The translations under genes were made by a program, and so were the position numbers. Positions 28,598 to 59,134 of a DNA stretch of 64,000 nt are shown in pieces (the stretch's first letter is position 1; the number at the start of each line of letters is the position of its first letter). The notes under the pieces are model-generated. The model had not been told where the DNA came from and made no database searches. It was given only the letters and a program-made list of their open reading frames with translations. This DNA is from Aquisphaera giovannonii (GTDB lineage: Bacteria > Planctomycetota > Planctomycetia > Isosphaerales > Isosphaeraceae): positions 10,230,001 through 10,294,000 of the forward strand of contig NZ_CP042997.1 in NCBI RefSeq assembly GCF_008087625.1, given 5' to 3'.

Positions 28598-29476
28598 GTG
28601 TCCGAACCGTCGCCCGCCGATGGCCCGCTGGTGCCGATCTCCTGCCGGGTGGAACGCGCGGTCTGGGAGGCGATCGAGGCCCGCCTCGAGGGGTCGAATG
28701 GCTCGCTCGACGACCTGGTGAACTCCGCGCTGGCGGACTACCTCCAGGTCGGGCGGAGCACGCTCTACCAGCTCTCCACGGCCGGCGCGCTGGTCGAGGG
28801 GATCTACCGGGGCGAGATGACGGTGGCCCGGCTGCGGGGCCACGGCGACCTCGGGCTCGGGACGTTCGAGGGGCTCGACGGCGAGATGGTCGTCGTGGAC
28901 GGGCACTTCTACCAGGTCCGCTCCGACGGCATGGTCTCCGAGGTGGCCGACGGCGTCAGCAGCCCCTACGCCGTGCTCACGAAGTTCGACCCCGGCGTGC
29001 CCACGCCGCTGTCCAACTGCTCCAGCCTGGCGGACCTGGAGGGGGAGCTGGACCGCCTGAGGACCTCGGACAACCTCTTCTACGCGATCCGGGTGGACGG
29101 GGTCTTCTCGAGCGTCCGCACCCGCGCCGTGCCCCGGACGGCCGACGGCGTGCCGCTGGTGCAGGCCGCGGCCTCGCAGCCGGAGTTCCACCTGGCGGAC
29201 GTCCGCGGCACGATCGTCGGCTTCTGGTCCCCGGCCTACTTCAAGACGCTCACCGTGCCGGGCTACCACCTCCACTTCCTCAACGAGGACCGCAACGCCG
29301 GCGGCCACCTCCTCGACTGCGCCGGCCGCGAGCTCGTCGCCCGGATCGAGCGCGAGTCCAACCTGCGGCTGACCCTGCCGCACACCGGCGCGTTCCTCGA
29401 CGCCGACTTCGCCCGCGACTCCAGCGACGACCTCCGCCGCGCCGAGACCGCGCCCGGGGGGCACGCCGATGCCTGA
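28598..29476 (+). CDS. budA: Acetolactate decarboxylase with N-terminal ribbon-helix-helix-like domain
   Basis: The gene encodes 292 residues from GTG 28598 (CGGAGG upstream). Residues ~58-290 are acetolactate decarboxylase: STLYQLSTAGALVEGIYRGE, HGDLGLGTFEGLDGEMVVVD and the zinc site His224, His226, His237 (GYHLHFLNEDRNAGGHLL). The enzyme converts 2-acetolactate to acetoin, the fermentative/overflow branch from pyruvate. Residues ~13-50 are additional to the usual ~240-residue enzyme and read PISCRVERAVWEAIEARLEG, then SLDDLVNSALADYLQ, the strand-helix-helix pattern of CopG/Arc repressors. Such a fusion might let the enzyme bind DNA or dimerise. alsS follows, originally perhaps only nine bases away. 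Confidence 0.9.
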   Translation: MSEPSPADGPLVPISCRVERAVWEAIEARLEGSNGSLDDLVNSALADYLQVGRSTLYQLSTAGALVEGIYRGEMTVARLRGHGDLGLGTFEGLDGEMVVVDGHFYQVRSDGMVSEVADGVSSPYAVLTKFDPGVPTPLSNCSSLADLEGELDRLRTSDNLFYAIRVDGVFSSVRTRAVPRTADGVPLVQAAASQPEFHLADVRGTIVGFWSPAYFKTLTVPGYHLHFLNEDRNAGGHLLDCAGRELVARIERESNLRLTLPHTGAFLDADFARDSSDDLRRAETAPGGHADA

Positions 29477-29595
29477 GGGCGCATCATGAGCGAGCCGAGG
29501 GATCACGCGACCGGGTGGCCGTGGCGGGGCCCGGCGTGTCGCGTGACGCCGTGGCTGGCCGCGAAGCCTGGAATGAGCCCGCGTCGTGCGACAAC

Positions 29596-29702
29596 GGATT
29601 CCCACCTCACGAAGGGGGGATACAGGGGGGTGAACTCGATCGCCTCGGCTTGTGCCATCCACCCCCTCCGACTCCCCCTTCGTGAGGGGGAGAGCCGAAT
29701 AG
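29596..29702. repeat. Bipartite inverted repeat (family A), copy 2
   Basis: The left arm CCTCACGAAGGGGGGATACAGG... and the right arm ...CCCCCTTCGTGAGGGGGAG correspond to the element at 13912-14022, including the internal TCGATCGCCTCGGC spacer also seen there as TCGACCGCCTCGGC. Base changes in the two arms compensate each other (ACGAA/TTCGT in one copy, CACGAA/TTCGTG here), suggesting that the paired structure is conserved. Confidence 0.8.
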
Positions 29703-29740
29703 GCTCGCCCGCTATCAGAGGGACCGGGGCCTGCGCGGCC

Positions 29741-29941
29741 GGGTGGCCGTGGCAGAGCCGAAGGCGATGCCGCGGGATCGCCTCGGCCCGCGTGCGAGGC
29801 TTCGCTCATTGCGCCGGCCTCCCCTCCCGTGGTGTCGCTTCGCTCCACCGCAGCCACCCGAGCCCTGTGCGGGGAACGAAGGGACGGAAGGGCCGCTCCG
29901 GGTGGCCGTGGCAGAGCCGAAGGCGATGCCACGGGATCGCC
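29741..29941. repeat. Family E repeat arms (GGGTGGCCGTGGCAGAGCC type)
   Basis: GGGTGGCCGTGGCAGAGCCG begins nearly identical ~42-base arms at 29741 and 29900. An inverted partner arm (CCCGTGGTGTCGCTTCGCTC...) lies at 29826-29859. The partner is almost identical to the right arm of the element at 50581-50697, so these belong to one family with a variant left arm. A related shorter piece starts at 29514. Confidence 0.7.
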
Positions 29942-30012
29942 CCCGCTCCGGGGCAGGCGTCGGCTATCTCGACAACCCGTCCCAGTCACATACGTCTTGT
30001 GGAGGGCCAATC

Positions 30013-31692
30013 ATGAGCGAGCCGGAGACGCAGCACGGCACGGGCCGGATCGGGGCGCAGCTCCTCGTGGAGCACCTGGAGGCCCAGGGCGTGGAGCACA
30101 TCTTCGCGATCCCGGGCGCGAAGATCGACCGGCTGCTGGACGTCCTGCACGGGGCGAAGCCGCGGCTGACGGTCTGCCGGCACGAGCAGAACGCCGGGCT
30201 CATCGCCTCGGGCATCGGCCGGATGACGGGCCGGGCGGGGGTCTGCCTGGTCACGTCCGGGCCGGGCTGCTCCAACCTCGTGACCGCACTGGCGACGGCG
30301 ACCTACGAGGGCGACCCGGTCGTCGCCCTGGGCGGCGCGGTGCCGCTGGCGGCGCGGCACAAGCTGACGCACCAGACGCTGGACACCGTCAACCTGTTCC
30401 GACCGGTGACCAAGCTGAGCATCGAGATCGACTCCGGCCAGACCGTCTCCGAGGTCCTCGCCGGCGCCTTCCGCGCCGCCGAGTCCGGCCGCCCCGGCGC
30501 CGCGTTCGTGAGCCTGCCGGCCGACATCATGGAGGGCCCGACCTCCACCGCGAACCTCGCCCCCTCGCGGCCGCCCCGGCTGGGCCCCGGCGACGCCGAG
30601 ACCATCGCCGAGGCCGCCCGGCTGATCAACGGCGCGAGCCGCCCCGTGCTGCTGCTGGGGATGCTCGCCAGCGACCCGCTCCACGCCGCGGCCGTCCGAC
30701 GCCTCCTGAAGGCCGCCCCCCTGCCCGTGACCTGCACGTTCCAGGGCGCCGGCGTCGTCTCCCGCGAGCTCCTCGGCTGCTTCGCCGGCCGCGTCGGCCT
30801 CTTCCACAACACGCCCGCCGACGAGGTCCTGGACGCGGCCGACGTCGTGGTCACCGTCGGCTTCAACCCGATCGAGTACGACCCGTCCGCCTGGAACCGC
30901 GGCGCCTCGCGGCCGATCGTCCACCTCGACGTCGTCCCCGCGGAGATCGACGCCGACTACCGGCCCGCCGTGGAGGTCATCGGCGACGTCGCCGACTCGA
31001 TCGACGCCCTGATCCCTCAGCTCCGGCCGACGCCCAGCCTGGAGGGCCACGCCGCCCTCGACGCCGTGGCGAAGCTCGTGGCCGCCACCCGCGCGAAGGC
31101 CGCGACCCTGGACGGCACCCCGATCCACCCGCTGCGCCTGATCCACGAGCTCCAGGAGATCCTCACCGACGACATGACCGTGATCTGCGACGTCGGCTCG
31201 ATCTACATCTGGATGTGCCGCCATTTCTACGCGTACCAGCCGCGCCGGTTCCTCGCCAGCAACGGCCAGCAGACGATGGGGGTGGCCCTCCCCTGGGCCA
31301 TCGCCGCGTGCCTGGTCCGCCCCGGCGAGAAGGTCGTCTCCATGTCCGGCGACGGCGCCTTCCTGATGAGCGCGATGGAGCTGGAGACGGCCGTCCGGCT
31401 GAAGTGCAACCTCGTGCACCTCGTCTGGCGCGACGGCTCCTTCGACATGGTCAAGATCCAGCAGCTCGCGAAGTACGGCCGCGAGACCGCCGTCGAGCTC
31501 GGCCCCGTGGACGTCCTGAAATACGCCGAGGCCTTCGGCGCCACCGGCCTGGCGATCCGGACCCCGGCCGACATCGCCCCGACCCTCCGCCGCGCCCTGG
31601 AGATCCCCGGCCCGGTCCTCATCGACGTCCCCGTGGATTACTCCGACAACGCGTCCCTGGTCCGGGCCGTGCGCGCCGACGCCGTGGCGTAG
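30013..31692 (+). CDS. alsS: Acetolactate synthase, catabolic AlsS type
   Basis: The protein is 559 residues with the three thiamine-diphosphate enzyme domains. The catalytic Glu lies in CRHEQNAGL, the central domain carries LGMLASDP, and the C-terminal cofactor motif is GDGAFLMSAMELETAVRLKC followed by FDMVKIQQLAKYGRE. The VKIQQ...KYGR...VELGPVD tail matches the catabolic, FAD-independent AlsS group rather than anabolic IlvB. It joins two pyruvates into 2-acetolactate, the substrate of BudA encoded just upstream, so together they make acetoin. The start was taken at ATG 30013, with GGAGGG seven bases upstream supplied by the adjacent insertion. No regulator gene of the alsR type lies near. 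Confidence 0.92.
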   Translation: MSEPETQHGTGRIGAQLLVEHLEAQGVEHIFAIPGAKIDRLLDVLHGAKPRLTVCRHEQNAGLIASGIGRMTGRAGVCLVTSGPGCSNLVTALATATYEGDPVVALGGAVPLAARHKLTHQTLDTVNLFRPVTKLSIEIDSGQTVSEVLAGAFRAAESGRPGAAFVSLPADIMEGPTSTANLAPSRPPRLGPGDAETIAEAARLINGASRPVLLLGMLASDPLHAAAVRRLLKAAPLPVTCTFQGAGVVSRELLGCFAGRVGLFHNTPADEVLDAADVVVTVGFNPIEYDPSAWNRGASRPIVHLDVVPAEIDADYRPAVEVIGDVADSIDALIPQLRPTPSLEGHAALDAVAKLVAATRAKAATLDGTPIHPLRLIHELQEILTDDMTVICDVGSIYIWMCRHFYAYQPRRFLASNGQQTMGVALPWAIAACLVRPGEKVVSMSGDGAFLMSAMELETAVRLKCNLVHLVWRDGSFDMVKIQQLAKYGRETAVELGPVDVLKYAEAFGATGLAIRTPADIAPTLRRALEIPGPVLIDVPVDYSDNASLVRAVRADAVA

Positions 31693-45237: not shown

Positions 45238-45684
45238 AGGATGGACCAGCAGCGGGAGGATCAGCGAGCCCTGACACGGCCCGCTGAGTCCTCCATGACC
45301 TCGAGCCGGTCATGAAGTCATCTCCCCCTCCCGACGAGCGCGAGAGGGGACAGGAATCCGCGGTCCCGCTCGCCGACGATGCTGCGGTCGGCATCGGAGG
45401 ACGCCGGCACAGGTCAAGCCTGCGCGGCGGGCCCTGCCCCTCGCGCGGGCCCTCGCCCGCCATGCGGCCGCGCCTCGCGCCTTGCGCGATCCTGGTATTT
45501 TTCTGCGCGATCTCGGCACTTGCGGGCGCCCCGTCGCGGCGCCTATCGTCTCCGGTTGACCCCGTTCGAGGCACGGGCAATCGATCGTGCGAGCCGGATC
45601 TCGACCGCGGGCTGCGTCCGGCCGGCGGCCCCGCGCGCCGGGATCCCCGGGCCGCGGCGGCGGCCGCGACATGGAGAACGATTC
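45238..45684. other. Intergenic region upstream of the arabinofuranosidase gene
   Basis: The 447 bases hold no recognised gene or repeat. A locally AT-richer spot (GGTATTTTTCTGCGCGAT, near 45492-45509) is a possible promoter component for the GH51 gene. Long frames crossing the region lack coding features. Confidence 0.35.
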
Positions 45685-48264
45685 ATGCGAGGAACAGACC
45701 GATCCCGCCGGGGCCTGGCCCCCTGGCTCGCCACGCTCGCCGCCTGCGCGGGCCTCGGCTCGACGGCCCTGCCGGGGCGGGCCGATGCGCCGGCCACGAT
45801 CGACGTGGACGTCGACAAGCCCGGCGTGGCGATCCCCGCGGACTCCTTCGGCCTGATGACCGAGGAGATCAACCACGCCTACGACGGCGGCCTCTTCGCC
45901 GAGCTCATCCAGAACCGCACGTTCCAGGATCCGGGCTCGCGTGGCGGCCCGGGCGCCGGGGGCGTCGCCGTGGGCGGCCTTCCGGTCCACTGGTCGGTGA
46001 TCGGCCCGGGCAAGGCGGCGACCGTGGACGCCGACCCGGCGACGCCCGCCCTGCCGCTCAGCCTGAAGCTCGAGCTCGGCGGCGGCGAGTCGGGCGTCGC
46101 GAACGACGGCTACTGGGGCATCCCGGTGCGGCCGAACACCGCGTACACGGCCAGCTTCTTCGCGAAGGCCTCCGGCGGCTTCGCGGGGCCGGTCACGGCC
46201 TCGATCCGCATCGACGACGGCGGCGCCATCGTCGCGAAGGCCGACACGCCGCCGGTCACCGGCGGCTGGCTGAAGTACACCGTCACGCTGAGGACCGGGG
46301 CCGACGCCCCGACCACGTCGAAGGCCCGGTTCGTCCTCTCCGCGAGCGGGGCCGGCAGCGTCGAGTTCAGCCTGGTGTCGCTCTTCCCGCCGACGTATCA
46401 GAACACGCCCAACGGCTTGCGCGTGGACCTCATGGAGCTGATGGCCGACCTGAGGCCGAAGTTCATCCGCCTGCCGGGCGGCAACTACCTCGAGGGAAAC
46501 CGGTTCTCGGACCGCTTCAACTGGAAGCAGATGATCGGCCCGGCCGAGCTCCGCCCGGGGCACCAGGGCTGCTGGGGCTACCGGTCGTCCGACGGCTTCG
46601 GCCTGCCCGAGTACCTGCTCTGGTGCAAGCAGCTCGGCGCCGAGCCGGTGCTCGCCGTCTTCGCCGGCTACGTGCTCAACGGCGACTACGCCCGGGCCGG
46701 CAGCCCGGAGATGGCCGTCTACACGCAGGAGGCCCTCGAGGAGATCGAGTACGTCAGCGGCCCGGCCGACAGCGAGTGGGGCCGCAGGCGCGCGGCCGAC
46801 GGATTCCCGGAGCCCTTCCCGCTCCGCTACGTCGAGATCGGCAACGAGGACTGGTTCGACCGCTCCGGCAGCTACGACGGCCGGTTCACCCAGATGGCCA
46901 CCGCGATCCGCGCGAAGTACCCGCACCTGAAGATCATCGCGTCCGCCCCGGTGAAGAGCTTCACGCCCGACGTCTTCGACGACCACTTCTACCGCAGCGC
47001 CCGCGAGCTCCTGCGGATGAGCTCGATGTATGACGAGCCGAAGGGCACGCCCAGGCCGCTCCGCTTCAACGGCGGCGGCTACAACGGCCGCCAGCCCGGC
47101 GGGATCAAGACCTTCGTCGGCGAGTGGGCCACGCAGGAGGGCCGGCCGACGCCCACTCTCAACGCCGGCCTGGCCGACGCCGCGTTCGTCATGGGGCTGG
47201 AGCGGAATTCCGACGCCGTGATCATGCAGTGCTACGCCCCGCTGCTCGTGAACGTGAACCCGGCCGACCCGGGGAAGGGCTATCCCCGGGCCTGGCAGTG
47301 GGGGACGAACCTCATCGGCTACGACGCGCTCCGCAGCTTCGGCTCGCCGAGCTATCACGCCCAGGTGATGCTCGCCCACAACAAGGGGGACGTCGTCCTG
47401 CCGGCGAAGATCGACGTCGCCCCGGTGAAGCCGAAGGAGGAGACGCCGAAGGGCAAGGTCGGCCTCGGCGCCTGGCACACGCAGGTGGAGTACGCCGACT
47501 TCACCGTGACCGCCCCGGACGGCCGCGTGCTGCTCTCGGCCGACCAGGCCAGGGACATCAAGAACTGGAAGACGACCGGCGGCTCGTGGAGCGTCCGCGG
47601 CGACGCCCTGGCCCCGGCCGAGCGCGACGGCGAGACCTGGGCGATCGCCGGCGACCCGAGCTGGACCGATTACACGATCCACGTCCGGGCCCGCAAGCGG
47701 GGCGGCCGCGAGGGGCTCATCGTGATCTGGCACGCGGCCGACGGCGACAACTACCGGTGGTGGAACGTCGGCGGCTGGGGCAACACCGTCATCCAGTGCG
47801 AGGCCGCCGAGGCCGGCGGCCGCAACCCCTACGGCCCGAGCACGCCGATCTCCGTCGAGGCGGGCCGCTGGTACGACCTGAAGCTCGAGGTCGCCGGCCG
47901 TCGCGTCAAGGGCTACATCGACGGCAAGCTCGTGACCGAGGCCGCGGACGCGGCGCCGGCGGCGCAGGCCCCGGTCGTCGCCACGGCCACCTATGATCGC
48001 GCCGACCACGCGGTGCTCGTGAAGGTCGTCAACGCCGGCGACGAGGCGATCGACGCCAAGGTCAACCTCCGCGGCGCCGGCCGCGTCGGGCCGAGCGGCG
48101 TGGCGACGGTCCTCTCCGGCGAGCCCGGCGCCGTCAACACGGCGGACGAGCCCAAGAAGGTGGCGCCGAAGCAGGAGGCCATCACCGACGCCTCCGAGTC
48201 CTTCCGCCGGACCTTCCCGCCCCACTCGTTCACGATCCTGCGGCTGAAGGCCGAGGCGCGGTGA
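45685..48264 (+). CDS. Secreted alpha-L-arabinofuranosidase, GH51 type, with inserted beta-sandwich
   Basis: The protein is 859 residues. A signal peptide (1-~35) is followed by the N-terminal strand VAIPADSFGLMTEEINHAYD and a carbohydrate-binding-like sandwich (~95-235). The (beta/alpha)8 barrel is at ~240-560, with acid/base Glu388 (VEIGNEDW) and nucleophile Glu480 (FVGEWATQ). The C-terminal sandwich is interrupted by a ~165-residue concanavalin-like module (~595-760) with WTDYTIHVRARKRGG, NYRWWNVGGWGN and GRWYDLKLEVAGRRVKGYID motifs. The enzyme releases terminal arabinofuranose from arabinans or arabinoxylans outside the cytoplasm. ATG 45685 begins the signal peptide. No sugar transporter is adjacent. 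Confidence 0.92.
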   Translation: MRGTDRSRRGLAPWLATLAACAGLGSTALPGRADAPATIDVDVDKPGVAIPADSFGLMTEEINHAYDGGLFAELIQNRTFQDPGSRGGPGAGGVAVGGLPVHWSVIGPGKAATVDADPATPALPLSLKLELGGGESGVANDGYWGIPVRPNTAYTASFFAKASGGFAGPVTASIRIDDGGAIVAKADTPPVTGGWLKYTVTLRTGADAPTTSKARFVLSASGAGSVEFSLVSLFPPTYQNTPNGLRVDLMELMADLRPKFIRLPGGNYLEGNRFSDRFNWKQMIGPAELRPGHQGCWGYRSSDGFGLPEYLLWCKQLGAEPVLAVFAGYVLNGDYARAGSPEMAVYTQEALEEIEYVSGPADSEWGRRRAADGFPEPFPLRYVEIGNEDWFDRSGSYDGRFTQMATAIRAKYPHLKIIASAPVKSFTPDVFDDHFYRSARELLRMSSMYDEPKGTPRPLRFNGGGYNGRQPGGIKTFVGEWATQEGRPTPTLNAGLADAAFVMGLERNSDAVIMQCYAPLLVNVNPADPGKGYPRAWQWGTNLIGYDALRSFGSPSYHAQVMLAHNKGDVVLPAKIDVAPVKPKEETPKGKVGLGAWHTQVEYADFTVTAPDGRVLLSADQARDIKNWKTTGGSWSVRGDALAPAERDGETWAIAGDPSWTDYTIHVRARKRGGREGLIVIWHAADGDNYRWWNVGGWGNTVIQCEAAEAGGRNPYGPSTPISVEAGRWYDLKLEVAGRRVKGYIDGKLVTEAADAAPAAQAPVVATATYDRADHAVLVKVVNAGDEAIDAKVNLRGAGRVGPSGVATVLSGEPGAVNTADEPKKVAPKQEAITDASESFRRTFPPHSFTILRLKAEAR

Positions 48265-48356
48265 GCGGGGTGGGGCGGCGATCCTCTCGGGAAGGCCGCC
48301 AGCCATGATCTCGCCGCGTATGGTCGCGCCGACGACTCGGCCCGGCCAGGCTCTCT

Positions 48357-48527
48357 CCTTCCCCTCTCCCGCTCGGCGGGAGAGGGCCAGGGTGAGGGTC
48401 TTCAAGCCGCGGCCCGCCGGTACGACAGGGAGCAACCGAGTCATATCGACACGAAGCCTTTGGTCGCTCGCTCGCCGAGCCACCCTCACCCCACCCCTCT
48501 CCCGCCGAGCGGGAGAGGGAGACGTCC
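48357..48527. repeat. Bipartite inverted repeat (family B), copy 2
   Basis: Left arm 48357-48403 and right arm 48483-48527 match the copy at 16094-16270 almost base for base in the arms, while the ~80-base centre has diverged. It fills most of the 307-base gap between the stops of two convergent genes, so termination of transcription is a plausible role. Confidence 0.85.
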
Positions 48528-48571
48528 GTTCGCTCGCGGCTCAGGATCGTCGACACTTCCTTGCTGACCGA

Positions 48572-49960
48572 TCACGCCTGCACCGCCTGGAGCCTGCCCC
48601 CGAACAGCACGTTGAGCCCTTCGGACATCGTCGGGTGCGAGAAGATCGCGTCGCGTAGCGCCGTGTAGGGGAGGCCGCCGACCATGGCGGTCTGCACGGC
48701 GGCGAGGAGCTCGCTCGCCTCGGCGCCGAAGGCGGTGAAGCCCAGGATCCGGTCGTCCGGCTCCGCGGCGATGAGGGCCTTGACGAAGCCCCGGGGGGCG
48801 GAGATCGTCCGCGTCCGGAGGATGGACGCCATCGGCATCCTCGCCAGCCGGTAGGGGATCCCCTTCGCCTTCGCCTGGGTCTCAGACAGGCCGACGTGGG
48901 CGAGCTCCGGGTCGGTGAAGAGGCAGGAGGGGATCAGGCGGCCGGCCGTCGTCCGCGAGCCGCCGGAGAGGTTGGCGAGCACGACGCGGAAGTCGTCGTA
49001 CGACGCGTGCGTGAACTTCGGGCTCCCCGCGCAGTCGCCCATCGCCCAGACGCCGTCCGCGGTCGTCTCCAGGCGTTCGTTCACGCGAACATAGCCGTGC
49101 GCGTCCAGCTCCACGCCGCCCGCCGCCGCGTCCAGGGAGTCCGTGTTGGGCGTGCGTCCCGTGGCGACGAGGAGGTGCGTCGCCTCGATGGCCGCGCCGC
49201 CGGCCAGCGCGATCGTCACCTCCTCCCCCGAGGTGCCCGAGACGGAGGCCACGGACGCCCCCGTGCGCACGGCGATGCCCTCGTCCGCCATGAGCTGCGT
49301 CAGGGCCTCGGAGACGTCCGGATCCTCGCCGGCGAGGAGCCTCGAGCGCTGGAGGATCGTCACCCGGCCGCCGAAGCGTCGCAACGCCTGGGCGAACTCC
49401 AGCCCGACGTACCCGCCGCCGAGGACGACCAGGTGCTCCGGCAGCCGCTCCAGCTCCAGGGCCTCCACGTGGGTCATCGGCCGGGCGTCGGCCAGGCCGG
49501 GCACATCCGGCAGGCTCGCCCGCGAGCCGACGTCGAGGAAGACGCGGTCGGCCTTCAGGACGCGCTCGCCCCCGCCGTTCAGGGCGACGCGGACCGTCCG
49601 GGGCCCGACGAACCGGCCCTCGCCCATGACGATCTCGGCGCCGCTCGCCCGGAACTTCTCCATGTGCAGGGCCTGGAGGCCCTCGACCATCGCCCGCTTC
49701 CGCGCCGTCACGCCGGCCATGTCCACCGTCGCCGGCCCTGTGTGGATGCCGTACGTGCTCGCCTCGCGCACGAACTCGGCGACCTTCGCCCCGTGAATCA
49801 CGTTCTTCGACGGCAGGCACGCCACGTTCGGGCACGCCCCGCCGACCTTCCAGCGCTCGACGACCGCCGTCCTCTGGCCCTTCCCGCCGAGGGTCCAGGC
49901 CAGGTACTTCCCGGCCTCGCCGCTGCCGATCACCAGGTTCTCATAATGATCATCGGACAT
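48572..49960 (-). CDS. FAD-dependent pyridine nucleotide-disulfide oxidoreductase (class I)
   Basis: The gene encodes 462 residues. The N-terminal Rossmann motif is LVIGSGEAGKYLAW (GxGxxG). The redox-active disulfide is in VGGACPNVACLPSKNVI, the C-x4-C arrangement of mercuric reductase and dihydrolipoamide-dehydrogenase-like enzymes. The NAD(P) fold is at LVVLGGGYVGLEFAQ, the FAD-binding GVWAMGDCAGSPKFTHAS follows, and a C-terminal interface domain ends IFSHPTMSEGLN. The absence of a C-terminal Cys pair argues against true mercuric reductase. The substrate is unknown; related planctomycete proteins are annotated simply as mercuric-reductase-like. The start ATG 49960 has AGGAG upstream. Confidence 0.9.
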   Translation of the reverse strand: MSDDHYENLVIGSGEAGKYLAWTLGGKGQRTAVVERWKVGGACPNVACLPSKNVIHGAKVAEFVREASTYGIHTGPATVDMAGVTARKRAMVEGLQALHMEKFRASGAEIVMGEGRFVGPRTVRVALNGGGERVLKADRVFLDVGSRASLPDVPGLADARPMTHVEALELERLPEHLVVLGGGYVGLEFAQALRRFGGRVTILQRSRLLAGEDPDVSEALTQLMADEGIAVRTGASVASVSGTSGEEVTIALAGGAAIEATHLLVATGRTPNTDSLDAAAGGVELDAHGYVRVNERLETTADGVWAMGDCAGSPKFTHASYDDFRVVLANLSGGSRTTAGRLIPSCLFTDPELAHVGLSETQAKAKGIPYRLARMPMASILRTRTISAPRGFVKALIAAEPDDRILGFTAFGAEASELLAAVQTAMVGGLPYTALRDAIFSHPTMSEGLNVLFGGRLQAVQA

Positions 49961-50143
49961 GGACGTGCTCCTGTCGTCGTGTCGAGCGTCATCGCGACGG
50001 CCTGGCCAGGGAGGCCGCCCCGCGTGGCGCCGCCCCCGGCGAGACATGATACGAGATCGGGGAGTCCGTGCACCCGCCCGAGGGCTTTCGCTCGTGCCGA
50101 TCGCATCCTAGTATGGAAGGACAGGAGCGGAGGAGCGGCGACC

Positions 50144-50431
50144 ATGAGCGAGACCGTGACGCTGGAGATCCCCGACGAACTCGCCAGGCGTGCCCGGGAG
50201 GTCGCCTCGGCGACGAGACGCCGCTTCGAGGATGTCGTCCTGGACGGCCTCCGACGCGCCGTCGAGGAGCCGGACGTCGAGGCCCTGCCCGACGACTCCC
50301 TCCTGGCGCTCTGCGACGCGACGATGAGCCCGGCCAACCAGGACGCCCTCGGGACGCTGCTCGTCCTCCATCGGGAGGGGACGCTCTCCGGGGACGAGGC
50401 GGCTCACTTGGACGTGCTCATGGCGGAATAA
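50144..50431 (+). CDS. Small ribbon-helix-helix-like protein, probably C-terminally truncated
   Basis: The gene encodes 95 residues, with GGAGGAG upstream of ATG 50144. The N-terminus (MSETVTLEIPDELARRAREV, then ATRRRFEDVVLDGLRRAVEE) has the strand-helix-helix pattern of RHH DNA-binding or antitoxin-type proteins; the C-terminal half is acidic and helical (LLVLHREGTLSGDEAAHLDVLM). Sequence just after the TAA (50429-50431) reads RRGLVLKARA and, after skipping one C in a CCCC run near 50460-50463, LKAAVARGLRPTL. That looks like the normal basic C-terminus of this family, as I recall it. The gene may therefore have lost about 30 residues by a stop and a frameshift. No toxin gene is adjacent. Confidence 0.65.
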   Translation: MSETVTLEIPDELARRAREVASATRRRFEDVVLDGLRRAVEEPDVEALPDDSLLALCDATMSPANQDALGTLLVLHREGTLSGDEAAHLDVLMAE

Positions 50432-50580
50432 CGGCGCGGGCTGGTCCTGAAGGCGCGGGCCCTCAAGGCAGCTGTGGCCCGCGGGCTCCGCCCCACGCTG
50501 ACCGACGATGCCGCGTGAGGGAACTGATGGTGGCGCGGGTGAGGCCGGCGCCGAGCCCGACGGACTTCGCGTTACCCTCC

Positions 50581-50697
50581 GGGTGGCTGCGGTGGAGCGC
50601 AGCGACACCACGGGACCGCCTCGGCTCGCCAGCCAGGCTTCGATCATCGCGCAGGCCTGTCCGCCCGTGGTGTCGCCGCGCTCCACCGCAGCCACCC
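50581..50697. repeat. Inverted repeat (family E), complete copy
   Basis: The arms GGGTGGCTGCGGTGGAGCGC... (50581-50614) and ...CGCTCCACCGCAGCCACCC (50664-50697) pair over 34 bases with few mismatches. The right arm is nearly identical to 29826-29859. It occupies the gap between the truncated regulator and the convergent ABC permease gene; nothing else was recognised in 50432-50781. Confidence 0.8.
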
Positions 50698-50781
50698 GGT
50701 GCGGCTGAGCCAAGATCCCCGCGGTCGCCGCGCGAAGTCGGCCACCGAAAAGTGGCATACGGCGCTCGTTCGAGGTCCATC

Positions 50782-51609
50782 CTAGGTATTCGACGGCAGG
50801 TCCCGGCGGAGGAAGACGACGAAGGCCAGGACGATGCCCGCGGCGGCCACGGCGCCGAGGGCCGCGGCGTGGGGGGCGAACGTCGCGCCGGTGACGGCGA
50901 CCTCCACGGGGTCGAACGCCTTGAAGACGGAGAACCGGCCGATCCACTCCCAGTCCGAGAGCGTCGGGAAGGTGGAGGCCACGCCCGCCACGTAGCCGGC
51001 GATCGTGACGGTTGCGGAGAACAGGTTGGGACGCCAGCGGACGACGTCCCACGAGCCGCACAGCAGCGAATAGCCGTAGACGGCCAGGCCGACCAGGGCG
51101 AGGTTCGTCGCCGGCATGATGAGCGCCATGGCCGTGGGCGGATCCGAGACCGGGTTGTAGAGCCCGCCGACGCGGTTGCCGACGACCAGGGCCGCGGCCA
51201 GGACGAGGAATCCGAGGACGGCGACGATCACCTGCGTGGCCAGGTACTCCGCGCGGGACACGGGCCGCGAGAGCGTCACGTCCAGCGTGCCCCGCTCGAG
51301 CTCGCCGGCCACCGCCGCGGTGCCCCGCGAGATCGCCCAGGTGCAGAGGATCAGGAAGACGAAGGGGTGGCTCCAGAACATGACCTGGAAGGCCAGCGAG
51401 GAGAAGTCCATCGCGGCGCCCCCCATCCCCCGCGTGAACTGCGTGAACCGCTCGGCCTCCTCTCCGGTCACCTCGCGGAACCGCCGCTCGACGCGGCAGG
51501 CGATGAACGCGGAGAGCCAGCCCAGACCGAAGAGCGCGGAGGCGGCCAGGCCGAGGAACCACCGCGATTCGCCGAGCTGCCTGCGGAGCATGGTGCCGAC
51601 GGCGGTCAT
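50782..51609 (-). CDS. ABC-2 type transporter permease
   Basis: The protein is 275 residues with about six hydrophobic segments (residues ~20-40, ~75-95, ~120-145, ~155-180, ~190-210 and ~240-265). The GELERGTLDVTLSRPVSRAEYLATQ segment is characteristic of ABC-2 export permeases (the loop that precedes 'RP.SR...L..K'). It would form the channel for the ATPase encoded immediately upstream; its ATG overlaps that gene's stop (ATGA). Pairs of this kind export lipids, drugs or polypeptides; the cargo cannot be inferred. The start at 51609 fits both coupling and membrane layout. Confidence 0.85.
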   Translation of the reverse strand: MTAVGTMLRRQLGESRWFLGLAASALFGLGWLSAFIACRVERRFREVTGEEAERFTQFTRGMGGAAMDFSSLAFQVMFWSHPFVFLILCTWAISRGTAAVAGELERGTLDVTLSRPVSRAEYLATQVIVAVLGFLVLAAALVVGNRVGGLYNPVSDPPTAMALIMPATNLALVGLAVYGYSLLCGSWDVVRWRPNLFSATVTIAGYVAGVASTFPTLSDWEWIGRFSVFKAFDPVEVAVTGATFAPHAAALGAVAAAGIVLAFVVFLRRDLPSNT

Positions 51610-52535
51610 GACGGGCCCCCCTCGCCTTCGTCCCCGCCCTCGTCGCCCCCGGCCTCGGGGCCGTGGTAGCGGTCGTAGAGGCTCCGCAGGTCCTCGGTGC
51701 CGACGGCGAAATCGACGATCGGCTGCGAGCCGATCCACGTCGCCAGCGGGGACACCGGCCCGCGGTGCTCCCAGAGGACCGTCGCGCCGTTGCGCTCGCG
51801 GACGACGAGCCCCAGCTCCTCCGGGAAGCGGTCGGGGACGCCCCCCTCGTAGCGGGCCAGGACCAGCCGCAGGCCTCGGCGGTCGCGCATGTCCTCGACG
51901 TGCATCAGCCTCCCCCGCCGCATGATGGCGACCCGGTCGGCGACGGCCTCCACCTCGGAGAGGACGTGCCCGGAGAAGAGGACCGTCTGGCCGGCGGCCC
52001 TCGCCTGGCCGACGAGGCTCACGACGTCGTTCCGCACCGTCGGATCGAGCGCGGAGGTCGGCTCGTCGAGGACCAGGATCTCGACCGGGTCGGCGAAGGC
52101 CTGCGCCAGGGCGAGCTTCTGCTTCATGCCCGTGGAGTAGGTCCGGACCTTGCGGGAGAGGTCCAGCTTCAGCACCCGCTCCGCCAGGGCGACGGCCCGC
52201 TCCAGGGCCTCGCCGCCGCGGAGGTCGCTCATGTAGCGGAGCATCTTCAGGCCGGTGAGGTGGCCGAAGAGGCGGATCTCGCCGGGGAGGTACGAGACGC
52301 GCCGGCGCATCTCCCGCCCCTGGTGCCAGGGGTCGAATCCGGCCACGCTGGCGGTGCCGGCCGTCGGGCGGAGCATCCCCAGGAGCACCCGGATCAGGGT
52401 CGTCTTCCCCGCCCCGTTGGGCCCGAGCAGGCCCAGGACCTCCCCCTCGCGGACCTCCAGGCTGACGTCCGACAGGGCCGCAAAGCGCCCGTAGTGCTTC
52501 GTCAGCCCCCAGGTCGCGATCACCGTCTCGCCCAT
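51606..52535 (-). CDS. ABC transporter ATP-binding protein
   Basis: The gene encodes 309 residues. The nucleotide-binding domain is complete: Walker A GPNGAGKTTL, Q-loop region YLPGEIRLFG, a variant signature TYSTGMKQKLALAQA, Walker B ILVLDEPTSALD and switch His in LFSGHVLSE. The C-terminal ~85 residues form the extra domain of ABC-2 exporters of the CcmA/NatA kind. The start ATG 52535 has GAGGAGGG six bases upstream; the frame stays open further up but without homology. It is the first gene of a two-gene exporter with the permease at 50782-51609. Confidence 0.92.
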   Translation of the reverse strand: MGETVIATWGLTKHYGRFAALSDVSLEVREGEVLGLLGPNGAGKTTLIRVLLGMLRPTAGTASVAGFDPWHQGREMRRRVSYLPGEIRLFGHLTGLKMLRYMSDLRGGEALERAVALAERVLKLDLSRKVRTYSTGMKQKLALAQAFADPVEILVLDEPTSALDPTVRNDVVSLVGQARAAGQTVLFSGHVLSEVEAVADRVAIMRRGRLMHVEDMRDRRGLRLVLARYEGGVPDRFPEELGLVVRERNGATVLWEHRGPVSPLATWIGSQPIVDFAVGTEDLRSLYDRYHGPEAGGDEGGDEGEGGPS

Positions 52536-52717
52536 CGACCCTCCTCGCTCGTCGCGGACCGCGGCCATCCGGCCCGGGATGCTACCCATGCCGTCGTGCC
52601 CGGGTTTCGGATTTCTCGAGCCGGCCGGCCGCGCGGGGCGCGGCGTCCCCGCGGCGGTACACTGAGTCGTACGGATCGCCGGATCGGGCCCGAGGCGGAC
52701 CAACCGAGGGGTGGCGC

Positions 52718-53071
52718 ATGCGACTGAATCACCTGAACCTGACGGTCACGGACGTGCAGGAGACTCGCCGGTTCCTGGAGACATACTTCGGGATGGAAGG
52801 CCGGGGAGGGAACGACAACATCGCCTTCCTGACCGACGAGGGCGGCATGGTCCTCACGCTAACCAGCATGAAGCTCGGCGGGGTGACCGAGGTGAGGTAT
52901 CCGCCCAGCTTCCACATCGGATTCGCGCAGGCGAGCGCCGAGTCCGTGGACGCGATCCACGGGCGCCTCAAGGCCGACGGCTACGACGTCCCGGCGCCCA
53001 GCCGGCAGCACGGCTCCTGGACGTTCTACTTCACCGCCCCGGGGGGATTCACCGTCGAGGTCCTATCCTGA
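52718..53071 (+). CDS. VOC (glyoxalase/bleomycin-resistance) superfamily protein
   Basis: The protein is 117 residues, the length of a single vicinal-oxygen-chelate module. It starts MRLNHLNLTVTDVQETRRFLE, with the first metal-ligand His5, continues YFGMEGRG and FHIGFAQAS with a second His, and ends FTAPGGFTVEVLS with the final Glu ligand. These residues agree with a metal-dependent dimeric VOC enzyme, which might be a dioxygenase, glyoxalase-like or resistance protein. The substrate is unknown. It is flanked by the divergent ABC ATPase gene and the convergent DUF1254 gene and has no apparent operon. Confidence 0.85.
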   Translation: MRLNHLNLTVTDVQETRRFLETYFGMEGRGGNDNIAFLTDEGGMVLTLTSMKLGGVTEVRYPPSFHIGFAQASAESVDAIHGRLKADGYDVPAPSRQHGSWTFYFTAPGGFTVEVLS

Positions 53072-53122
53072 GAACGGCCCGCGCGGGGCGGGCGCCGGGC
53101 CCTCGCCCCGTGGGGGGTCGGC

Positions 53123-54175
53123 TCACTCGGCCGGCCGGGGCTCCGGGAATTTCCAGGTGCCGTCGAGGACCTCCGGCCGGGGCCGGTAGAGGCGGACGAT
53201 GTAGTTCCAGCCGGGCGTGATGGGGATCGAATTCGGGGCCGAGCCGTCGCCGCCGAAGGTGACGGTGACGGAGCCGTCGGCCGCCTTCTTCGCCGTGATG
53301 TTGCTGATCGTGTAGGCGTCCCGGGGGTTCGGCTTGAAGAAGCCGTCGGCGCCGTAGACGCTGATCGACCAGAAGCCGTCCACGGGGACGTCCTTGACCG
53401 TCACCGTGTAGGGGGTCTTGCCGTCGTTCTTCGCCGGCGTGACGTTGATGTAGGTGGCGTCGCCGTCCGGGTTGCCGCCCCAGCCGAGCGCGGTGCCGAT
53501 CAGGTGCCGGATCGGGTCGACCCGGCCCTTCGCGCCGAACGCGCGTTTCGAGTCCGGGAGCGTGGAGCCGAGCACCAGGAGGGCGTCGCGGACCTTCTTG
53601 TGGCTGGCCGGATCCCAGGCCGGCGGCTCGAACGCCCCGGGGCTCGCCTGCTCCGCCTTGATGGCGTCCTGGAGCCGGTGGACCTCGTCCAGGTCCTTCG
53701 GGTCGGCCGGGTCCACGAGGGTCCGGACGAGCGCGAGGACGTACCGCGTGCCGATCTCCTTGCGGTCGAGCGTGCGGGCGCCGGCCCCGTAGGAGACGCC
53801 ATGGGTGAAATGGTCTTGATCGATGACCTGGAGGGACTGGAATCGCGTCCCGGCGTCCGGGAGCGTGACCGTGACCGCCCCGGCGTCCAGGTCGAAGACG
53901 GCGGCGGAATAGAGCGTGTCGCGGTTCATCCGGATGATCGTCTGCCTGTCGATCGGCGTCAGCTCGCGGCTGTGCCGGAACTTGCCGAAGCCCCCTTCCT
54001 TGACGATCCCGCCGAGGTAGACGTCGCTCTCGGCGCGGATGAAGTTCTCGACCGTGACCGGGGCGGGCTTGCCGGCATCCTGCCCCGCGTCGGCGTGGGG
54101 CAGGATGCCGGTCAGCGACAGGGCGGCGAGCAGCAGGCCGGGGACCGGGAGCATCGGGCAGGCGTGGATTCGCAT
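53123..54175 (-). CDS. Secreted DUF1254/DUF1214 protein
   Basis: The gene encodes 350 residues with a signal peptide (1-~31, ending near ADAG). The N-terminal half (VTVENFIRAESDVYLGGIVK, IIRMNRDTLYSAAVFDLDAG, RFQSLQVIDQDHFTHGV) is DUF1254. The C-terminal part (GFWSISVYGADGFFKPNPRD, PITPGWNYIVRLYRPRPEVLDG) is DUF1214, as in other bacterial proteins of this two-domain type. No catalytic role is established for the family. Start ATG 54175 has GAGGGG upstream; the frame extends further but without a signal peptide. It follows the FtsX-like permease gene on the same strand after ~219 bases and may be transcribed separately. Confidence 0.88.
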   Translation of the reverse strand: MRIHACPMLPVPGLLLAALSLTGILPHADAGQDAGKPAPVTVENFIRAESDVYLGGIVKEGGFGKFRHSRELTPIDRQTIIRMNRDTLYSAAVFDLDAGAVTVTLPDAGTRFQSLQVIDQDHFTHGVSYGAGARTLDRKEIGTRYVLALVRTLVDPADPKDLDEVHRLQDAIKAEQASPGAFEPPAWDPASHKKVRDALLVLGSTLPDSKRAFGAKGRVDPIRHLIGTALGWGGNPDGDATYINVTPAKNDGKTPYTVTVKDVPVDGFWSISVYGADGFFKPNPRDAYTISNITAKKAADGSVTVTFGGDGSAPNSIPITPGWNYIVRLYRPRPEVLDGTWKFPEPRPAE

Positions 54176-54394
54176 GGCAATCCCCTCGACGGGATTCGGG
54201 CGGAGATGGAGGGAACCCGGCTTCGTCGCCCGGGCCGGCCCGAGCGGGCCGCGTCCTGATGATAGGATCTCGGGACGCGGGCGGGAAGGCCCCACTCGAA
54301 TTCTCATGCAGGCATACGGCGGATGCCGTCGAGGGAGCCGGCCCCGCCCGCGGCCGTGCGGGCCGGCGCGGGCCGGGGCCGGCCCGGCGCGCCC

Positions 54395-57367
54395 TCACGT
54401 CGCCGCGCGGCCCGCCTGGAGGAGCTTCAGCGGCTCGGTCAGGCCGGTGCGGATCGCCGGCCACAGGGCGGCGAGCAGGCAGAGGCCGAGGGTGGAGCCG
54501 AAGCCGACGGAGAGGCCGTACCAGGGGATCACCAGCGGCGTGTACTGGCCGCCGCGGATGCTGATGTATCGCGAGACCCCCGTCCCGCAGTAGCCGGCCA
54601 TCGCGCCGAAGCCCAGGCTCAGCAGGCAGGCCACGGCGCCGACCAGCAGGGACTCGGCCAGGATCACCCGGGCCAGGCCCCATCGCGTCAGGCCGACCGC
54701 GCGCAGGACGCCCAGCTCCCATCGTCGGGCCCGGATCGACGCCAGCACGGCGTTCACCACGCCCAGCGACGTCACCGCCAGCGTCACCAGCGGCAGCTGG
54801 CTGAGCGCCCAGATGATCCCGTCGGCCCGGCCTCGTATCTGCTCGCGCACGCTGGCGGCCGATCGCAGCGTCACCGGCGGCCCGGCGGGCCGGCGCGGGC
54901 CCGCGCCGGGCACCGCCGGCGGGCCGCCGGCGCGGGCGGCCCCGGGGCCGGAGGACCGCGCTGCGATCGGCTCGACGGCCGCCCGGATCTCGTCCTCCGT
55001 CGCGGAGCCGTCCATGTCGCCCCAGAAGAGGGAGGGGCGGCCGGTGCGGAAGTCGGCCCTGATCTGGTCGTAGCCCGCGACCATCACGCCGGCGGCGCGG
55101 CCGCGGCGGATCGTCTTGGTCATCCAGTGCCAGCCGGGCATGGACACGATGCCGGCGACCTCGTATTCGAGCACCTCGCCGGGCCGGTCGGGCGCGATCA
55201 CCCGGAACTTGCCGCCGACGCCCAGGTTGGCCTCGCGGGCGAAATGGTCCGGGACCAGGCTGTATCGCCCCCTCTTCAGCTTCGCGACGGCCTCCTCGCG
55301 GTTGCCCTCCGCGAAGTCGAAGGCGAAGAGCGGGTCGGCGCCGGCCAGGGCCAGCTCCGGATCCACGCCGAGCATCAGGCAGGTGTCCTGCCGGGTGGCG
55401 GAGGGCCGCTCCCGGAAGCCGGTCGGGTCGTCGGCGAACCTGACCTGCCGCGACGCCACGGCGGCGAGCCGGCCGGGGGCCAGGCCCTTCACCCGGCGGA
55501 GCTCCCGCACATCCTCGTCGGGGATGCCGCCGGGGCCGAGCTGGATCATCAGGTCGGGCGTCCAGTCGCCGGGGGTGAACGGCGCGAGCATCGAGTAGCC
55601 CCAGGTCTGCATCGCCACGAACAGCCCCAGGCCGACGGTCAGCGCCACGGTCGCGCCGGCGGTCCGCCACAGGTTCGTGGAGAGCTGCATCGCGAGCAGC
55701 CGGGGATTCAGGCCCAGGACCTTCGCGACGACCGGCCCGAGCAGCCGCTCCACCAGGACGATCGCCGCCGGGGCCAGCAGCGCGAAGCCGACGGCCATCG
55801 ACGTGCAGCCGATCGCCGCGGACATCCCGTACCGCGCCGCGTCCTGCATCGGCACGTAGAAGACCAGCAGCGGGTTGACGGCGATCAGGAGCAGGCCGAC
55901 GGCCGTCATCGCCGCCAGGGCCGCGCGGCGGTCGACGCCCCGGCGCGGGGCCATCGCCTCCAGGGGGCTGACGCGGACGGCCCGCCAGGCCGGGAGGATC
56001 GACGCGGCGATCGAGCCGCCGAGCGCGCAGAGCCCGGAGAGCACCACGCACCACGACCCGAGCGCCGCGCCCTCGGAGACGGAGTCGGGCCTGAGCCGGG
56101 CCATCACCGAGAGCAGCCCCCGGCCCGCGAGCAGGCCGCCGGCCCAGCCGATCAGGCCCAGCAGCAGGCCCTCGACGCCGACCATGAGCGCGACCTGCGA
56201 CCGCGTGAGGGCGACGGCCCGGAGCATCGCGAGCTGGCGGATCCGCTCGTCCACGCCCATGCTCAGGGTCGTGAAGATGATGAACAGCGCCGCGAGCAGC
56301 GAGATCCCGGTGGCCGACCACGCCTGCGCGCGGACCGTCTCGAACGTCGTGCTCCCGGCGACGTCGCCCTCGACCTTCCCGGGCGTCCGGGCCTCGGCCG
56401 GGGGCGTGGCCTTCGAGAGCCGCTCGGCCCAGCCGGCGGCGAAGTCGTCCGCCTTCACGCCGGGCTTCAGGAGGACGCCCGCATAGCTGGGCCGCGGGGG
56501 CGCCCCGGCGAGCTCCGCCGCCAGCGCCGCCGGCACGTACACGGCATTCCCCGCCGGGCCCCCCTGGAGGGCCGCGTCCCTCGACGGCGGCAGGCCGACC
56601 ATGAACTTCGGCGGCGGCAGCCGCCGGGGCTGCTCGACGATCGCGACGACCTTGACCGTCGGCTCGGGCCTCGATGCGGCCTTCGGGCTGCCCCCCCTCA
56701 TGCCGCCGAGCATCCCCATCATGGCCCGGCCGACGACCAGCTCGTCGCCGACCGTCACGCCCAGGGCCTCGGCCGAGTCCCTCGTGATCGCGGCCTCCCG
56801 GCGCCCCGGGTGCGCGGGGTCGAACCACCTGCCCGCGACGACCGGCTGGAGCGGCTCCGCGGAGTCGGTGCCGACGAGCGACGGCGACCGCGCCTGGCCG
56901 CGGAGCTGGGCCATGCCCCCCATGATGATCGGCCCGGAGCCGGCCTTCGGCTGCGCCGGCATGGCGGGCATGGGCCCCTCGCCGGGCCGCGGCGGCGGCG
57001 AGCCGGCGCGGCGGATCGAGGCGCGCGACTCGTAGACCGGGGCCACGGACGCCACGCCCGGGTCGCTGCGGATCGCGTCCAGGAGCGCGTTCGACAGCCC
57101 GCGCGGCCCGGCCGGCCCGGCGGACTCCTCGGGCCCGGCCATCATGGGGGGCCCGCCCGAAGGGATCACCAGAAGGTCATATCGGCCGACGTATTCCTCG
57201 CCCATGTCGCCGAACCGGCCGACCAGGGAGTCGTACCCGCTGACGACCCAGACCACGACGCACGCCGCGGCGATCGTCGAGAGGCTCGTCAGCACGATCC
57301 GCCCCGGCCGCTGCCTCGCGTGCGAGAACGCCAGCTTCGCCGCCGCCCTGAACTCCGCGCCGTTCAT
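54395..57367 (-). CDS. Large FtsX/MacB-type ABC transporter permease
   Basis: The protein is 990 residues. One membrane helix near residues 20-45 (RIVLTSLSTIAAACVVVWVV) leads to a large periplasmic domain (~50-330). A first FtsX core of three helices with an ERIRQLAMLRAVALTRSQV coupling segment is at ~340-470. After two further hydrophobic blocks and a second periplasmic domain (~590-860) comes a second FtsX core near the C-terminus, with RARRWELGVLRAVGLTRWGL. This duplicated layout is that of LolC/E- or MacB-like transporters that act on lipoproteins or peptides by mechanotransmission. The ATPase gene lies upstream on the same strand, separated by a ~210-base gap carrying an inverted repeat. 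Confidence 0.9.
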   Translation of the reverse strand: MNGAEFRAAAKLAFSHARQRPGRIVLTSLSTIAAACVVVWVVSGYDSLVGRFGDMGEEYVGRYDLLVIPSGGPPMMAGPEESAGPAGPRGLSNALLDAIRSDPGVASVAPVYESRASIRRAGSPPPRPGEGPMPAMPAQPKAGSGPIIMGGMAQLRGQARSPSLVGTDSAEPLQPVVAGRWFDPAHPGRREAAITRDSAEALGVTVGDELVVGRAMMGMLGGMRGGSPKAASRPEPTVKVVAIVEQPRRLPPPKFMVGLPPSRDAALQGGPAGNAVYVPAALAAELAGAPPRPSYAGVLLKPGVKADDFAAGWAERLSKATPPAEARTPGKVEGDVAGSTTFETVRAQAWSATGISLLAALFIIFTTLSMGVDERIRQLAMLRAVALTRSQVALMVGVEGLLLGLIGWAGGLLAGRGLLSVMARLRPDSVSEGAALGSWCVVLSGLCALGGSIAASILPAWRAVRVSPLEAMAPRRGVDRRAALAAMTAVGLLLIAVNPLLVFYVPMQDAARYGMSAAIGCTSMAVGFALLAPAAIVLVERLLGPVVAKVLGLNPRLLAMQLSTNLWRTAGATVALTVGLGLFVAMQTWGYSMLAPFTPGDWTPDLMIQLGPGGIPDEDVRELRRVKGLAPGRLAAVASRQVRFADDPTGFRERPSATRQDTCLMLGVDPELALAGADPLFAFDFAEGNREEAVAKLKRGRYSLVPDHFAREANLGVGGKFRVIAPDRPGEVLEYEVAGIVSMPGWHWMTKTIRRGRAAGVMVAGYDQIRADFRTGRPSLFWGDMDGSATEDEIRAAVEPIAARSSGPGAARAGGPPAVPGAGPRRPAGPPVTLRSAASVREQIRGRADGIIWALSQLPLVTLAVTSLGVVNAVLASIRARRWELGVLRAVGLTRWGLARVILAESLLVGAVACLLSLGFGAMAGYCGTGVSRYISIRGGQYTPLVIPWYGLSVGFGSTLGLCLLAALWPAIRTGLTEPLKLLQAGRAAT

Positions 57368-57412
57368 CGAGGTGAGCCCTCCCGGATGGACAAGGCAATC
57401 CCATGTTCTCTT

Positions 57413-57551
57413 GTAAGGTGCGTCTCGACGCACCGGACCGGCGCGTCATGGGGGACGGCCTCGGCCACGCGCCGATGGGAGGCCCGTGCCTCCGCCCATC
57501 CTCGCTCTCCCCGCGTGGCGGGACGGTCCGGTGCGTCGAGACGCACCCTAC
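57413..57551. repeat. Inverted repeat (family F), copy 2, inside the ABC gene pair
   Basis: The arms GTAAGGTGCGTCTCGACGCA... (57413-57439) and ...TGCGTCGAGACGCACCCTAC (57525-57551) form a 27-base stem with one mismatch; each arm also contains the short palindrome TGCGTCTCGACGCA. The relative at 35657-35835 shares the outer GGTGCGTC and GCACCGGA motifs. It lies between the ATPase stop and the permease start, so the two genes would be transcribed across it. Confidence 0.82.
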
Positions 57552-57576
57552 GAAAGATTAATACAAGAATGTTTTA

Positions 57577-58383
57577 TTACGATGACTCGACGGCGCCCTG
57601 GTAGCGGGCGGCCAGCGAGTGGGCGTCGCGGTAGTCGTCGCCGGCGCGGAGCTCGGCCAGGATGCGGCCGTCCTTCATGACGACGACGCGGTCGGCCCAG
57701 GCGGCGACGGCCGGCTCGTGGGTGACGACGACGATGGCCCGCCGGCGCTCCTCGGAGAGCTCGCGGAGGAGGCGGCAGATCCCCTGGCCGGTGGCCGAGT
57801 CGAGGCTGCCGGTCGGCTCGTCGGCCAGGACGAGGGCCGGCTCGGCGACGAGCGCCCGCGCGATCGCCACGCGCTGCTGCTCGCCGCCGGAGAGGGCGTC
57901 GGGGCGGTGCCGGCGCCGCGGGGCCAGGCCTAGGCGGTCCAGCAGCGGGCCGACGCGGCCGGCGATCGCGTCGTCGCGGCCCTCGGTCAGCAGCGGCAGC
58001 GCGACGTTCTCCTCGGCCGTGAGGGTGGGGACCAGGTTGAACGCCTGGAAGACCAGGCCGATCCGGCGGCGGCGGAACCGCGTGAGCGTCGCGTCGGGGA
58101 GCTTCGCCAGGTCCGTCCCCTCGATCGCCACGCGGCCCTCGTCGGGGCGGGTCAGCCCGGCGGCCAGGTGCAGGAGCGTGCTCTTGCCCGAGCCGCTGGC
58201 CCCCATCACCGCCACGAATGCGCCCTCCTCGACCGTCAGGGAGACGCCCCGGACGGCCTCGATGATCGCGTCGCCCTGGCGGAACCGCTTGGCCACGCCC
58301 TCCAGGACGACCGGAGGGGCGGCCGGCCCCTGCGGCGTCTCGTGGCCCGCGGCCGCGGCGGATCCGGTCATGATGCTCGTCAT
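57577..58383 (-). CDS. ABC transporter ATP-binding protein, LolD/MacB type
   Basis: The protein is 268 residues. Motifs are GASGSGKSTLLHLAAGLTRP (Walker A), VFQAFNLVPTLTAEENV (Q-loop in the LolD/MacB form), LSGGEQQRVAIARALV (signature), LVLADEPTGSLDSATGQ (Walker B) and VVTHEPAVAAWADRVV (switch His). The QAFNLVPTLTA..NV and EPTG-LD blocks are typical of the o228/MacB family that drives FtsX-type permeases, consistent with the 990-residue permease downstream. The start ATG 58383 overlaps the stop of the lipoprotein gene (ATGA), linking transporter and lipoprotein in one operon. An Ala/Pro-rich 25-residue N-terminal extension precedes the domain. Confidence 0.92.
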   Translation of the reverse strand: MTSIMTGSAAAAGHETPQGPAAPPVVLEGVAKRFRQGDAIIEAVRGVSLTVEEGAFVAVMGASGSGKSTLLHLAAGLTRPDEGRVAIEGTDLAKLPDATLTRFRRRRIGLVFQAFNLVPTLTAEENVALPLLTEGRDDAIAGRVGPLLDRLGLAPRRRHRPDALSGGEQQRVAIARALVAEPALVLADEPTGSLDSATGQGICRLLRELSEERRRAIVVVTHEPAVAAWADRVVVMKDGRILAELRAGDDYRDAHSLAARYQGAVESS

Positions 58384-58853
58384 CGCGCGTGTCCCTCCCG
58401 GGTCGTCCCCGTCGCCTTGCGCGTCGTCGAAAGCTCGAACGGGGGGAGCTCGCCGCCCCCCTCCTTCACCACGGCCTTCAGCCCCGAGCTCGCGGGCGAG
58501 GCGTACCGGCCCTTCAGCCGGTCCGCCCCCTCGATCTCCTCGCCGCGGTCCTCCTTGATCGCCGGCCAGGCCACGCCCACGGCGTACTCGCCGGCCGGCA
58601 TGCCGTCGTGGGCGTTGATCGTCGTCGGGCGGAACGTGCCGTCCTCCTCGGTGGTCGCGATCGTCGGCGGGGCCGACGGGTCGGCGGCGCCCAGCGCCTG
58701 GAACGAGAGCCGCGCCCTCGCCGCGGGCTTGCCGTCCACGAGCACCTTGCCCGAGACCGGGATGATCGCCGGCCCCTGCTGGCCGCTCCCGCAGCCGCAC
58801 AGGGCCAGCATCATCAGGACCAGCGTACAGGCCCATGTGGCGGACGATGTCAA
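58380..58853 (-). CDS. Small carboxypeptidase-regulatory-like lipoprotein
   Basis: The gene encodes about 157 residues if started at TTG 58853. The N-terminus has a hydrophobic segment ending LALCGCGSG, a lipobox, so the mature protein is probably lipid-anchored. The rest is one carboxypeptidase-regulatory-like sandwich: VSGKVLVDGKPAARARLSFQ, EEDGTFRPTTIN and GMPAGEYAVGVAWP. Such lipoproteins commonly follow DUF1559 genes in planctomycetes, as here. The start is uncertain: the only ATGs in frame are inside the signal (MMLALCGC, too short) and no clear ribosome site precedes the TTG. The stop overlaps the ATPase gene. Confidence 0.72.
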   Translation of the reverse strand: MTSSATWACTLVLMMLALCGCGSGQQGPAIIPVSGKVLVDGKPAARARLSFQALGAADPSAPPTIATTEEDGTFRPTTINAHDGMPAGEYAVGVAWPAIKEDRGEEIEGADRLKGRYASPASSGLKAVVKEGGGELPPFELSTTRKATGTTREGHAR

Positions 58854-58900
58854 GCCATGAGCGCAAAGCCGGTTCCAAAGGTGTGGACGAGGACAAGCAA

Positions 58901-59068: not shown

Positions 59069-59134
59069 CGGGCGGGCGCGGCCCCGCCTGGTGTCCCATC
59101 CTCATCGGCCGGCCTCCCCCCTGCCCCGCCCGCA

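Follow-up and report, generated by a model that had tools for sequence, protein, structure and literature searches.

The budA-alsS junction and its inserted DNA

The window, by which we mean the whole 64-kb stretch of the Aquisphaera giovannonii genome that was analysed, contains two adjacent genes on the + strand. budA (28598-29476) encodes an alpha-acetolactate decarboxylase (PF03306, E = 1.6e-74) that is 86% identical to the A. insulae protein, and alsS (30013-31692) encodes an acetolactate synthase, a TPP enzyme with PF02775, PF02776 and PF00205 domains. The 15-mer ATCATGAGCGAGCCG occurs on either side of the DNA between them, at 29483-29497 and 30010-30024, with a spacing of 527 and 512 bases between the exact copies. 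As the first-pass annotation had claimed, removal of the insert and one repeat leaves a nine-base gap between budA and alsS.

A repeat finder stretches the pair to 23 nt (GAGGGC..ATCATGAGCGAGCCG) with 21/23 positions alike, so that the left copy could span 29475-29497 and the right copy 30002-30024, both on the + strand. The right copy holds the ribosome site, start codon and first codons of alsS, and the GAGGG of the left copy overlaps the budA stop codon TGA. The inserted spacer, which has no counterpart in the outgroups, comprises 29498-30001, or 29498-30009 for a duplication of just 15 nt.

The same annotation had described the insert as made largely of two repeat families, and sequence of these families, here A and B, does cover about 60% of it. 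A left-end fragment of repeat B (family D2; 29511-29531, + strand) is followed by a palindromic repeat A (29595-29710), a palindromic repeat B (29739-29861) and a half copy of repeat B (29898-29946, + strand) placed 159 nt after the full B copy. The first 97 and the last 55-63 bases carry no recognisable repeat copies apart from the 21-base B-end fragment. The tail (29947-30001) gives weak matches only, of up to about 29 nt, when searched against its own genome and that of A. insulae. On inspection, the inner ends of the insert do not form inverted repeats.

An open frame of 176 aa (29486-30016, + strand) runs through the insert and meets alsS in an ATGA overlap, and GGAGGG stands ahead of alsS; both features are present as previously described. 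A Pfam scan of two insert frames, including this one, matched no family. Since it lacks a Pfam match and is overlapped by other long frames, the frame is probably a chance product of GC-rich DNA and no gene. The ribosome site of alsS, which had been credited to the insert, may derive from the insert or from the duplicated target.

That the insert rewired the operon, as the first-pass annotation put it, is a conjecture. Scans of the spacer revealed no promoter-like and no terminator-like site, and Rfam matches within 29300-30200 all fall far under their gathering scores. The spacer RNA has a folding z-score of -4.5. This is attributed to the palindromes and is not read as a sign of function.

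A duplicated gene start and its relatives

A whole-genome scan of the 10.5-Mb A. giovannonii genome located exact ATCATGAGCGAGCCG at these two places only. Eight further sites differ from it by one mismatch, and the reversed control pattern has one site in all. The A. insulae genome contains the exact 15-mer once, on its own alsS start.

The 23-nt version would take in the alsS ribosome site besides the start codon. An exact GAGGGC, the 6-mer ahead of both copies, is found at a fraction of about 0.001 of the positions in the window. Taken as one segment, the 45 bases before the 15-mer score at background (a fraction of 0.82 of random segments do equally well), and the extension therefore depends on this 6-mer; selection for a ribosome site could alone yield GAGGGC before alsS. 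Past the end of the 15-mer, the score of the left relic against alsS is equalled by a fraction of 0.10-0.13 of random segments. A homology of the relic that reaches further into alsS was accordingly rejected, as the similarity stops where the 15-mer ends. Judged from these alignments, the duplication surely measures 15 nt and possibly 23.

Exact direct repeats of at least 15 nt that lie 60-1500 bp apart number 20 in the window, versus 0-3 in simulations (n = 20). Four of the 20 fall in the insert or constitute the pair under study; several more belong to clearly repetitive stretches. A nearby repeated 15-mer is thus not exceptional by itself. Its placement is another matter: one copy sits on the alsS start codon and the other nine bases past the budA stop. 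When each copy had to fall no more than 40 bases from one of two chosen edges, one 14-mer and zero 15-mers appeared in 400 random trials. With one copy placed by a stop codon and the other on a start codon, a chance origin of the pair is unlikely.

Sixteen loci were examined with the budA protein. budA lies upstream of alsS in nine loci outside Aquisphaera; the other seven comprise two with budA downstream, three without a budA match and two from A. insulae (one cut before budA). In all nine outgroup loci the likeliest alsS start, picked by eye among in-frame candidates, ranges from a 4-nt overlap with budA to at most 95 nt past its stop. The short junction is hence ancestral and, on this comparison of gene neighborhoods, the long A. 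giovannonii spacer is derived.

The sister species also has a long spacer. In A. insulae JC669 (NZ_JAALJH010000015.1), whose alsS matches at 89%, budA and alsS are separated by about 1.49 kb of DNA that differs in content from the A. giovannonii insert. The first-pass annotation would have been contradicted if relatives shared the long gap but lacked the direct repeat; the sister's long gap is a different one. The sister junction (contig C57:36236-37745) includes a gene of the Uma2 family, its stop and the alsS start sharing ATGA, and a reverse frame of 134 aa that matches no Pfam family. Within the A. giovannonii genome the A. insulae insert finds matches to its Uma2 part only, at 66-81% identity among the best 40 of 500 candidates scored. 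Compared with each other, the inserts of the two species score 30 in the forward direction (maximum of 100 shuffles, 32), which is no homology above shuffles, and 36 in reverse (shuffle maximum, 37), the latter corresponding to a short B-end-like match.

Past the budA stop, GGGCGCATCATGAGC and GGTCCCAACCTGAGC stand in the two species and agree at 11/15 positions. An ungapped match of 11/15 in register with the left copy is found at 2.2e-4 of sister-contig positions. By other scores the likeness is weak: its gapped score is reached at 1189 of 83930 positions, and among 42 segments that follow TGAGG, three score as high as the A. insulae left flank. Divergence from A. insulae at four-fold sites is 0.22 in budA and 0.30 in alsS. 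At such divergence, a relic dating from around the species split could plausibly show a likeness of 11/15, or two differences in 23. An old duplication common to the two species is a plausible but tentative reading of the left copy. Neutral DNA of this age should still align and the inserts do not, so either their content was replaced or two insertions entered the same site.

Repeat families A and B

Repeat A is a double palindrome of about 104-118 bp with 38-nt arms that are 74% complementary. Repeat B is a palindrome of about 122 bp that often occurs as a full copy plus a half copy or with its left ends mostly spaced 147-167 bp apart. Pattern searches detect 96 A sites and 77 B left-end sites in the A. 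giovannonii genome, and 25 and 5, respectively, in A. insulae. At the pattern stringency used, the remaining 43 of the 45 family genomes, a third genome of the genus among them, all have zero sites of either pattern, and control counts are zero throughout.

Used as a whole-genome query, the region has at least 64 matches in its own genome (best 40 of 387 candidates scored). Among the matches listed, all but the self-match fall within parts of 29597-29957. The order A then B recurs at G000:C1:5582038. A third palindromic sequence, of the GGGAGCCGGCTCC type, adjoins repeat B near 5.102 and 5.533 Mb of the same genome. Seven A copies (L083-L087, L090 and L092) have nearly the same flanks, at a minimum across the 60 bases aligned to either side, which indicates that A is part of a larger repeated unit at those places. 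Literature searches on repeats and insertion sequences in Aquisphaera, Isosphaeraceae and planctomycetes, largely outside subscription journals, yielded no title or abstract opening that describes the two families.

Window positions 45481-63294 match A. insulae C57 48213-65827 in inverted orientation, and repeat A copies lie near both ends of the inverted A. insulae block, at C57 47799 and 65915. Repeat A also stands at an orthologous place in both species (1.5486 Mb in A. giovannonii and near 9156 of G002:C223 in A. insulae), from which it follows that family A predates their split.

The A. giovannonii genome has six Y1_Tnp matches. Within 1.5 kb of these genes, a B match (78% over 88 nt) lies beside one of the six and a 27-nt B match near a second, and repeat A is beside none. 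Separately, four nearly identical elements at 0.237, 5.918, 4.814 and 5.283 Mb encode a 408-aa transposase-like frame. They are flanked by similar C-rich and G-rich sequences, as if an insertion sequence targeted a palindromic repeat.

The other A and B copies that were examined have no long flanking duplication. At 38 other A/B loci (20 located via A and 18 via B), 350-base flanks contain no flanking repeat of 15 or more, the longest being 14; the test covers duplications of 8 nt and above. In a control with mismatched flanks, repeats of at least 15 appeared in 3 of 1482 pairs.

Nine A/B loci were prepared for comparison with A. insulae; for four A loci, the two flanks were joined and used as a query against that genome. 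The orthologous place was found for three of the four; the fourth gave short one-sided matches only. Two have a short spacer in the sister species (12 versus 237 and 30 versus 267 bases) and show no duplication by inspection, and the third has an A copy in both species. Aligning the 64-kb window and the A. giovannonii region at 9.1-9.3 Mb with sister contigs provided nine collinear junctions. Three of them are short versus long, one being already counted among the A loci, and their edges carry repeats of just 6-7 bases. The four distinct short-versus-long junctions, a small sample, thus have no long duplication. Spacer growth with repeats occurs elsewhere in the genome, and among the junctions compared a long duplication is seen at budA-alsS alone. 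Other inserts with 15-bp duplications, for which the first-pass annotation had suggested looking, were encountered neither at the 38 loci nor at the four short-versus-long spacers.

Origin of the spacer and comparison with known systems

We infer that the direct repeat is a target duplication. The reading that we consider probable is an insertion of intergenic DNA into the alsS start with a target duplication of 15, perhaps 23, bases; A and B would have come along or arrived later. In the ancestral operon, alsS would have stood behind budA with hardly a gap. The DNA would then have entered at the alsS start in the Aquisphaera lineage, duplicating at least 15 and perhaps 23 target bases. The right copy would retain the alsS start codon, plus the ribosome site if 23 nt were duplicated, and the left copy would be a relic. 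The insert itself would be a mosaic of dispersed palindromic A and B repeats, partial copies and unique DNA that either arrived with the insertion or accumulated afterwards. The likeliest cause is either the repair of a staggered break in which DNA was captured, or an insertion sequence with long target duplications that has since been lost; we weakly favour the break repair. A single insertion shared by both species would require complete replacement of its content, because their inserts share no homology.

Alternatively, an insertion sequence of the IS1202 group type hit the alsS start, after which it disappeared or gave way to repeats. This is unlikely. NCBIfam model NF033594, which we take to cover the IS1202 group, has four matches of about 34 bits (cut-off 250) in A. 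giovannonii and none in A. insulae, and an IS1202-type source was rejected since no match in either genome exceeds the cut-off. The flanks of the four matching copies have no evident 15-nt duplication by inspection, and the junction retains no transposase. The possible duplication length does fit the 16-28 bp stated for target duplications of this group in PMC10132070.

The first-pass annotation had instead proposed a mobilised non-autonomous element or a composite of several. The data support this in part: the spacer is derived, consists largely of multicopy repeats and is bounded by an apparent duplication of the old target. They do not support a single mobilised element. Transposition of one non-autonomous element or A-B composite into the junction, leaving a 15-bp target duplication, is rather improbable: A and B are dispersed and palindromic, are more numerous here than in the sister, and recur once in the same order, but neither the 38 other loci nor the two A sites with short A. 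insulae spacers show a comparable duplication, the inner ends of the insert are not inverted repeats, and A and the full B lie away from its edges.

We give similarly little weight to the idea that insertions recur at the alsS start. On this view unrelated DNA would have come in at one and the same codon twice, once in A. giovannonii and once in A. insulae, and the translation-start region would have been duplicated both times; the downstream gene would thereby keep its start signals and the operon would tolerate the insert. Least credible is that a different gene, since ruined, once began at the left copy and happened to have the same first codons, the spacer and the similarity being unrelated: ATCATGAGCGAGCCG-like sites are over-represented (10 at one mismatch or fewer, the pair included, versus 1 for the control), as expected of a common start context, but the exact 15-mer occurs here only, both copies have GAGGGC ahead of them and no Pfam family matches the frame downstream.

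On the preferred reading of an insertion with target duplication, the locus is a further example of a known event, spacer expansion by dispersed repeats, in which the duplicated gene start is unusually clear. It offers one traceable case of a tight operon junction gaining half a kilobase of repeat DNA, and alsS would owe the survival of its translation start to the duplication of that start. A and B, present in 2 of 45 family genomes at the stringency used, may be useful for studying spacer growth in the very large planctomycete genomes.

A and B resemble MITEs in being short, multicopy and palindromic or inverted-repeat in structure. They differ from them in that the 38 loci tested have no long repeats at their flanks, and arrays and half copies are common for B. 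They also resemble REP/BIME sequences as dispersed palindromes, B often forming closely spaced arrays, but their units measure about 104-122 bp, and not the 20-40 bp given for REP units in PMC3733652. In REP/BIME systems with RAYT, the repeats flank a Y1 (RAYT-type) transposase gene; here a B match of some length lies near one of the six Y1 transposase genes. Relative to IS1202-group insertions, the budA-alsS junction has no insertion sequence, no transposase and no terminal inverted repeats of 20-30 bp; what it has in common with them is a duplication of approximately the same length.
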